Positions 32,931 through 34,812 of a DNA stretch of 64,000 nucleotides are shown piece by piece. Within the stretch, counting starts at the first letter, position 1; every line of letters begins with the position of its first letter. Under the pieces are notes generated by a model that saw nothing but the letters and a program-made list of their open reading frames with translations, made no database searches and was not told the DNA's origin. A program made the translations under genes and the position numbers. Where the stretch lies: contig JANQQL010000001.1 in NCBI GenBank assembly GCA_028289345.1, positions 186,001 to 250,000 of the forward strand. Direction: 5' to 3'. Source of the stretch: Planctomycetota bacterium. GTDB lineage: Bacteria; Planctomycetota; B15-G4; SIAN01.

Positions 32931-34748
32931 ATGAAACTCTTCGTTGTCCCAATGGTTCTGATTTCTTGCCTGGCCGCGCATGCTGCCGCCCAGGTCGTCC
33001 ACCCCACCAGCTACGAAAACACGTTCCGTGCCGCGCGCGAGGGGGAAGTCCCCGATGATTGGGAGAGCCGGGTGGCTGCGATGCACTCCCGGCCCCAGAT
33101 CGCCCGAGACTCCGTTGCTCAGACCTGGGACGGACCCAATCGCCTGGTCATGTACGACGTTCTCGCCCAACAAGAAACCCTGGCCGACTTTCCGACCGAA
33201 TCGCCCGCGCAGCGCTGGATCCCGGGCACATCGGCGCCGCTGAGCAGCGACGAAATCCACGGACGCTCGTGGACCACGACTCCCACTCCGATCACCACAA
33301 CGGGCTTCCCGTGGAGCACCCACGTCCGCATCACCTACAGCAACAGCACCGGGAGTCACGTCGCCTCCGGGACGCTGATCGATCCGTATCATGTGATCAC
33401 GGCAGCAACCACGGTCCATGAGGGGGCCGGCGGCACCTGGTCGAGTGGCGTCACCGTCTACCCGGCCTGGGATGGTGAGGCAGACGACGCCTTCGGGTCT
33501 GCCGCCGCCTCGAACTTCGGAGCAATGACCGCCTGGATCAGCAGCAGCGCCTCCTCCGACAACATGGCCTGGATTCGCTTGAATCGCCCCATTGGGTTCC
33601 TCACTGGCTATCTGGGCTACGGCGTGCCGAACTCCGCGGATCTCACCACGAACTTCTACAACCTGGCGGCTTATCCCACCGACACTTGCTACACCGGTGC
33701 CCCGGACGCGATGTACTACTCCTTCGGGACCAATGACACCATCGGTTCTTCGACAGTCTCCGCGAGCGTGTCCTGGCCCTGCAACGGCACGGGAATGGAA
33801 GGCGGGGGGGCGTACAGCATCATTTCCAGCGAGCGCTTCGTTCACGGAGTTCTGGCCGAATATCAAGGTGGTGGAACCCCACAACTTCTCTTCACCACCT
33901 GGAACACCCAGAAGTTCGACTTCTACGTCAACAGTATGGAAACCCCGGTCTACTCGGCCGTGGTCATGGATTTGGTTCCGATGGGGTGCAAGGCGGACAC
34001 CGGCGGCGCCCCGACTCACGCAGGAAAACCTCTCGAGGGATTCGAGTACTTGCTCGCCAACGCTTCCGACGTGGATCCCCCGAATGCGACTTACGTGGTG
34101 GACGTGTACGTATCTTCGAACAACAACATCAGTGAGTTCGACACCCTGATTCAGACTCAGATCATTGATCTGGATTTCGGCCCGCGCGAGGCGATCACCG
34201 TCGTCTCCGAGGAAATGCCCGTGTTGCCCCTCGACCTGGCGGGTGGCGACTATTGGGTCGGAGTCCTGGTCCGCTCGGCCAACAGCGACACCAGCAACGA
34301 CGACACCGATGGGACGGATGCCAGTCCGATCGCCGTGACTCCTTGCGACGTGGAATTCGAAGTGTTCGGCGAAGGAACGCCGGGCCTCGGCAACGTGATT
34401 CCCGTTCTGTACGGCGTTGGCAATTCCTGCATCCTCGGAAACTACGAGATGCGTCTGGCCGGGGCTCGCGGCGGCAGCCGGGGAATCCTCTGGATGGGAT
34501 TCGGCGAGGTTCAATGGAACCTGTTCGGCGGAACCTTCTTGATCGACCTGACTCAGCCGTACTACCTGTTCAACTTTGCTTTGGGAGGACCCCAGGGAGT
34601 TCCGGGCGCCGGGTCATTCGACCTGCCGGGAGCTGCCGACCTGGTCAACTATCCGGGCGTGGACATCTACTTCCAATGGACCGTCAAGGACGACGACGGT
34701 CCGGATGGCTGGGCGTTGAGCAACGGCCTGAGGCTTCACGTGAACTAA
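32931..34748 (+). CDS. Secreted trypsin-fold protein lacking catalytic residues
   Basis: 605 residues with a signal peptide (MKLFVVPMVLISCLAAHAAAQ). Residues of about 115-340 resemble a chymotrypsin/V8-like serine protease: SGTLIDPYHVITAATTVHEG aligns with the usual GTLI...TAAHC, and the Ser region reads CNGTGMEGGGAYSI. The catalytic His is replaced by Thr and no Ser stands at the nucleophile position, so proteolysis is unlikely. Residues of about 345-470 form a CARDB-like immunoglobulin-type domain (TYVVDVYVSSNNNISEFDTLIQTQ). The last 130 residues or so are another beta-rich domain (ILGNYEMRLAGARGGS). It is followed by a strong terminator, so it is a single-gene unit. Confidence 0.82.
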   Translation: MKLFVVPMVLISCLAAHAAAQVVHPTSYENTFRAAREGEVPDDWESRVAAMHSRPQIARDSVAQTWDGPNRLVMYDVLAQQETLADFPTESPAQRWIPGTSAPLSSDEIHGRSWTTTPTPITTTGFPWSTHVRITYSNSTGSHVASGTLIDPYHVITAATTVHEGAGGTWSSGVTVYPAWDGEADDAFGSAAASNFGAMTAWISSSASSDNMAWIRLNRPIGFLTGYLGYGVPNSADLTTNFYNLAAYPTDTCYTGAPDAMYYSFGTNDTIGSSTVSASVSWPCNGTGMEGGGAYSIISSERFVHGVLAEYQGGGTPQLLFTTWNTQKFDFYVNSMETPVYSAVVMDLVPMGCKADTGGAPTHAGKPLEGFEYLLANASDVDPPNATYVVDVYVSSNNNISEFDTLIQTQIIDLDFGPREAITVVSEEMPVLPLDLAGGDYWVGVLVRSANSDTSNDDTDGTDASPIAVTPCDVEFEVFGEGTPGLGNVIPVLYGVGNSCILGNYEMRLAGARGGSRGILWMGFGEVQWNLFGGTFLIDLTQPYYLFNFALGGPQGVPGAGSFDLPGAADLVNYPGVDIYFQWTVKDDDGPDGWALSNGLRLHVN

Positions 34749-34775
34749 TCCGAGTTCGTTGGAAACCCCACTCGA

Positions 34776-34812
34776 ACGGTGCGGAGGCGGCCACGCCTCC
34801 GCACCGTTTTTT
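34776..34812 (+). terminator. Rho-independent terminator
   Basis: ACGGTGCGGAGGCG-GCCA-CGCCTCCGCACCGT, a perfect 14-bp stem with a 4-nt loop, followed by TTTTTCT (six T counting the last stem base). It lies 27 nt after the stop of the trypsin-fold gene on the same strand. Confidence 0.92.

Follow-up and report, generated by a model that had tools for sequence, protein, structure and literature searches.

A predicted exported pseudoprotease of peptidase family S1 and its intact sisters in a planctomycete genome

Results

A complete gene encodes a multidomain protein with a protease-like domain

The window analyzed here, a 64,000-nucleotide stretch of DNA from a Planctomycetota bacterium, contains a complete gene at 32931..34748 on the + strand, which starts with ATG and encodes 605 aa with no internal stop. 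Its G+C content by codon position (0.58/0.50/0.78) shows the pattern of coding DNA, and directly 3′ of its stop codon lies an intrinsic-terminator-like hairpin with a 16-bp stem and a T run (34774..34809, + strand). A 531-aa open reading frame overlapping it on the opposite strand was not accepted as a gene. The flanking genes comprise an amino-acid-kinase-family gene, a sulfatase gene, and a carboxypeptidase-regulatory-domain gene; none of the neighbors was indicated as a partner gene, and comparing the neighborhoods of the paralogues revealed no partner common to them.

The protein can be divided into five segments, all on the + strand. Residues 1–21 (32931..32993) form a probable signal peptide, MKLFVVPMVLISCLAAHAAAQ, recognized by eye from its short charged start, hydrophobic core, and AxA site; this N-terminus agrees with the secretion proposed in a preliminary description of the gene. 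The following segment, residues 22–111 (32994..33263), is poorly conserved in the alignment, has mostly low pLDDT values, and is possibly a propeptide. A chymotrypsin-fold domain spans approximately residues 122–340 (33294..33950), as detected by Pfam, phmmer, a family profile, AlphaFold2, and Foldseek. It is succeeded by a well-modeled CARDB-like beta domain (approximately residues 348–475; 33972..34355) and by a lineage-wide C-terminal tail domain identified by profile matches (residues 476–605; 34356..34745).

The chymotrypsin-fold domain belongs to peptidase family S1

When the protein was searched alone, the Pfam Trypsin match was weak (E = 0.0042; 17.4 bits, under the curated cut-off of 20.6), and phmmer matched 1p3c at E = 1.2 × 10⁻⁴. 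A profile built from 34 relatives matched 1p3c at E = 3.6 × 10⁻²⁴, followed closely by AL20 and further S1 proteases of bacteria. A full-length model from 8 alignment rows was poor (pLDDT 54.4), and we therefore refolded residues 112–475 with 34 rows, obtaining a pLDDT of 93.6 and a pTM of 0.91. The preliminary description had suggested a structural comparison with proteases; Foldseek with the predicted domain placed 3cp7, 1p3c, and 3wy8 at the top ranks, and the predicted structure superposed on 1p3c with a TM score of 0.85 by target length. The best PDB matches are thus the bacterial S1 proteases AL20 (3cp7) and Bacillus intermedius glutamyl endopeptidase (1p3c). Because the model leans on mostly intact relatives, it demonstrates compatibility with the fold rather than independent proof of it. 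Taken with the profile match, the model identifies the protein as a homologue in peptidase family S1 (chymotrypsin/V8-like) with a predicted double beta-barrel fold, in line with the trypsin fold read at the outset.

Every residue of the catalytic triad is replaced

We located the catalytic positions in the family alignment (all codons on the + strand). The His57-equivalent codon is now ACC (Thr160; 33408..33410), the Asp102 equivalent AAC (Asn211; 33561..33563), and the Ser195 equivalent GAA (Glu290; 33798..33800), while the Ser214 equivalent has become Ala309 (33855..33857). Around the former histidine the protein has ITAATTV, against ITAGHCV in its relatives, and around the former serine TGMEGGGAY, against GGMSGGGAY; the Asp equivalent was assigned to N211 because SSDNMAW aligns to xxGDMGF. 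Where an active serine protease has His-Asp-Ser, this protein therefore carries T160, N211, and E290. The preliminary description had recognized the loss of His and Ser and overlooked that of Asp. It had also named a triad elsewhere in the chain as evidence against its reading, and none was seen in the alignments. Both the ACC and GAA codons lie at least two bases from every His or Ser codon, and these replacements are therefore not accounted for by single sequencing errors.

Other features of the active site have fared differently. The oxyanion-hole glycine (Gly193 equivalent, G288) is retained, as is a second cysteine pair, C254 and C284, common to two paralogues from the same genome, the intact L002 and the dead L003. 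The C42–C58 cysteine pair beside the active-site histidine has been lost (A145/T161), and the substrate-gripping 214–216 strand is altered (LAEY vs HSFL). Among the 45 columns that are ≥90% conserved in intact members, the protein keeps 35 and alters 10, and all four tetrad positions (the triad and Ser214) fall within those 10 (hypergeometric p = 0.0014, an approximate value because the columns were picked for conservation); the same test for L003 gave p = 0.00023. In a leave-one-out analysis, a tetrad residue was lost in 0 of 17 intact members. Ser214 serves only as supporting evidence, being absent from a few distant intact members as well.

Intact and altered copies coexist in the same genomes

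We searched 392 sampled Planctomycetota genomes, the classes of genomes G292 (154 genomes) and G383 (397), and named genome contigs; further class searches around G029 and G047 covered only 1 and 3 genomes. The named contigs, whose titles identify the phylum, were searched with a three-row alignment profile, and the window protein itself as query found no match in them. These searches yielded 52 complete Planctomycetota family domains, including the window protein (34 placed in the tree and 18 added later). His-Asp-Ser is kept in 49 of them, which answers the proposal in the preliminary description to look for homologues that retain the triad. The three exceptions are the window protein, L003, and the last member of the tandem triplet L071. 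One further relative (L101, G765:C5:99464-100564) has a single in-frame TAA inside the match and is possibly a broken gene or an assembly error.

Four paralogues are encoded in the same genome as the window protein; three of them (L002, L004, and L005) are intact, and the fourth, L003, is dead. L002 (G000:C22) is 35–41% identical to the window protein and has the same tail. In L003 (G000:C4:167213-168835, − strand), the triad reads Tyr/Cys/Ala, position 214 is Val, and the oxyanion Gly193 has become Asp; this gene lies ~12 kb from L005. The L071 triplet (L071:4988-10629, G472:C20) belongs to another planctomycete, and its last copy keeps His and Asp, has Thr in place of Ser and Trp in place of Ser214, and has three times the branch length of its nearest sister (0.51 vs 0.17). 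Dead copies therefore occur in 2 genomes, each of which also has at least two intact copies. No orthologue of the window protein was found in the 392 sampled genomes or in 14 genomes of its own class, and the family was absent at the search threshold from the other 13 genomes of that class.

In the tree of 34 sequences, the window protein and L003 clustered with intact L002 (support 86/54). A later tree recovered this trio at only 44/74 and joined the window protein and L003 as sisters at 86/88, with alternatives not rejected (p-AU ~0.25). We tentatively favor the sister relationship; the two copies may have lost catalysis in one shared event or in two separate ones. The Ser-to-Thr copy of L071 grouped firmly with its tandem neighbor (100/99). 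A single origin of all three altered copies was rejected (p-AU 0.0004), and the catalytic site has therefore changed at least twice. Given three intact paralogues in the same genome, we conclude that the window protein arose by duplication and then diverged as a pseudoprotease, and is very probably neither a pseudogene nor an error.

The accessory domains are shared with intact proteases

The preliminary description took the CARDB-like and C-terminal beta domains as signs of a protease scaffold re-used for binding. Two family members match Pfam CARDB (PF07705; best E = 2.1 × 10⁻⁵), and the window protein has no match at E ≤ 1; the CARDB-like region also occurs in intact family members. Because intact L002 possesses both this domain and the tail, neither is evidence of re-purposing, and from the sequences compared both are best described as inherited equipment.

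The tail is moreover general in this lineage. A profile search detected 74 copies of this unnamed ~128-aa domain in the genome. Each of the 14 genomes of the class carries it, with counts running from 9 to at least 150 per genome and, in most of them, from tens to well above a hundred proteins; across the phylum, 41 of 199 sampled genomes have it. It ends 0–5 residues from the stop codon in 43 of 44 copies examined, had no match among Pfam and NCBIfam models, and has no relative in the PDB by sequence. Its N-terminal companions, read by eye, are unrelated to one another and include FG-GAP-like repeat proteins and a metalloprotease-like protein; this spread suggests a candidate lineage-wide sorting or anchoring domain. 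The window protein shares the tail with L002 and L003, a distribution consistent with duplication inside this lineage, and L004 and L005 end differently. The C-terminal regions of L004, L005, L071, and L072 all differ from this tail, and tails therefore seem to have been exchanged within the protease family.

Discussion

We propose that the window protein is an exported, non-catalytic S1 paralogue of the V8/glutamyl-endopeptidase type, in which the fold is retained by selection and which works by binding, a reading to which we assign a probability of about 0.6. Its parts differ in strength. The pseudoprotease assignment is well supported at the sequence level, and the protein is very probably a non-catalytic yet functional paralogue. 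That it binds specifically a protease or its substrate is a tentative suggestion. Under this proposal, a triad-bearing S1 relative would have been duplicated, and one copy would have lost all triad residues while selection kept the fold. The signal peptide would direct export of the product, the tail domain would retain it in the envelope or on the surface, and binding would involve the protease scaffold together with the CARDB-like domain. One candidate target is an active paralogue, whose activity the protein would regulate, and another is a substrate-like polypeptide, to be sequestered or used as an anchor; the altered 214–216 strand weakens a simple substrate-decoy model.

Could the gene instead be a redundant copy from which catalysis has drifted away, under no present selection? 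It is known from a single genome with no orthologue, it sits on a long branch, and intact sisters supply redundancy. Yet the branch of intact L002 is similarly long (0.87 vs 0.94), the frame is open over its full length with coding base composition, and the signal peptide, the C254/C284 pair, and the terminator-like hairpin have all been kept. That the few altered conserved columns include all four tetrad positions also speaks against drift. Random mutation of its codons would produce about one nonsense change for every 23 missense changes, so that a neutral branch would hold many stops. By a rough estimate, fully neutral divergence (~0.94 changes per site) predicts roughly 25 nonsense changes, against 0 observed in 605 codons. 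We therefore consider decay unlikely, if less firmly so for the recent past. Less probable still is that the protein remains an enzyme, a hydrolase or of another activity, whose active site has been rebuilt with, for example, E290, N211, and T160 or a metal. Such a reading would draw on the retained oxyanion-hole glycine G288 and on an acidic residue exactly at the former nucleophile position, but we know of no S1 enzyme that uses a Thr/Asn/Glu set in place of the triad, and the unrelated set in L003, with its oxyanion glycine replaced, favors loss over one new chemistry.

A more serious competitor, which we rate below the main reading, casts the protein as an adhesin or surface scaffold whose trypsin fold carries a new face that binds matrix or polysaccharide and has no connection with the sister proteases. 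The tail and the CARDB-like domain would suit a surface protein, and the substrate strand is altered; the intact sisters have the same accessory domains, however, which do not single out this role. Binding stays the most plausible role, on grounds other than the accessory domains that the preliminary description had invoked, and by analogy with MamO a non-catalytic binding or partner role is our best guess.

A search of the available literature pairing Planctomycetota with pseudoproteases found no paper. This negative is weak evidence that such proteins are undescribed in the phylum; the recycling of a protease gene into what is most likely a binder would be a known kind of event, apparently undescribed in these bacteria. 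Secreted S1 pseudoproteases of bacteria have received little study, and because intact and dead sisters coexist in one genome, with a second independent change elsewhere, the evolution of a binder from a protease becomes directly testable here. It is an outside possibility that in Planctomycetes secreted S1 proteases are repeatedly duplicated, with one copy becoming a non-catalytic partner of its intact sisters; if so, bacteria would possess extracellular protease/pseudoprotease pairs comparable to the protease/homolog cascades of insects. The tail domain, a by-product of this analysis, may exceed the pseudoprotease itself in interest.

Among known proteins, 1p3c and 3cp7 of family S1 resemble the window domain in fold and sequence, but they are active proteases with His-Asp-Ser instead of Thr-Asn-Glu, and their solved chains of 215–218 aa consist of the protease domain only and lack both the CARDB-like domain and the tail. 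The secreted serine protease homologs of insects, such as SPCLIP1 and CLIPA8, are likewise S1 homologs that are non-catalytic by the usual definition and work together with active S1 proteases (PMC7580898); unlike the window protein, they are eukaryotic, carry clip domains, and act in a known cascade. A bacterial parallel is offered by MamO and the degenerate MamE copies of magnetotactic bacteria, triad-less trypsin-like duplicates that occur beside an intact sister, as here (PMC4794232). In the MamO/MamE family, duplication and loss have occurred three times independently, and the nucleophile of MamO is replaced by Thr, as in the third L071 copy (PMC4794232). MamO differs in being an HtrA-type protein of the magnetosome that binds metal through a di-histidine motif (PMC4794232). 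It nonetheless promotes the protease MamE with no need of its own triad (PMC4794232), a precedent that makes partner binding reasonable for the planctomycete protein.
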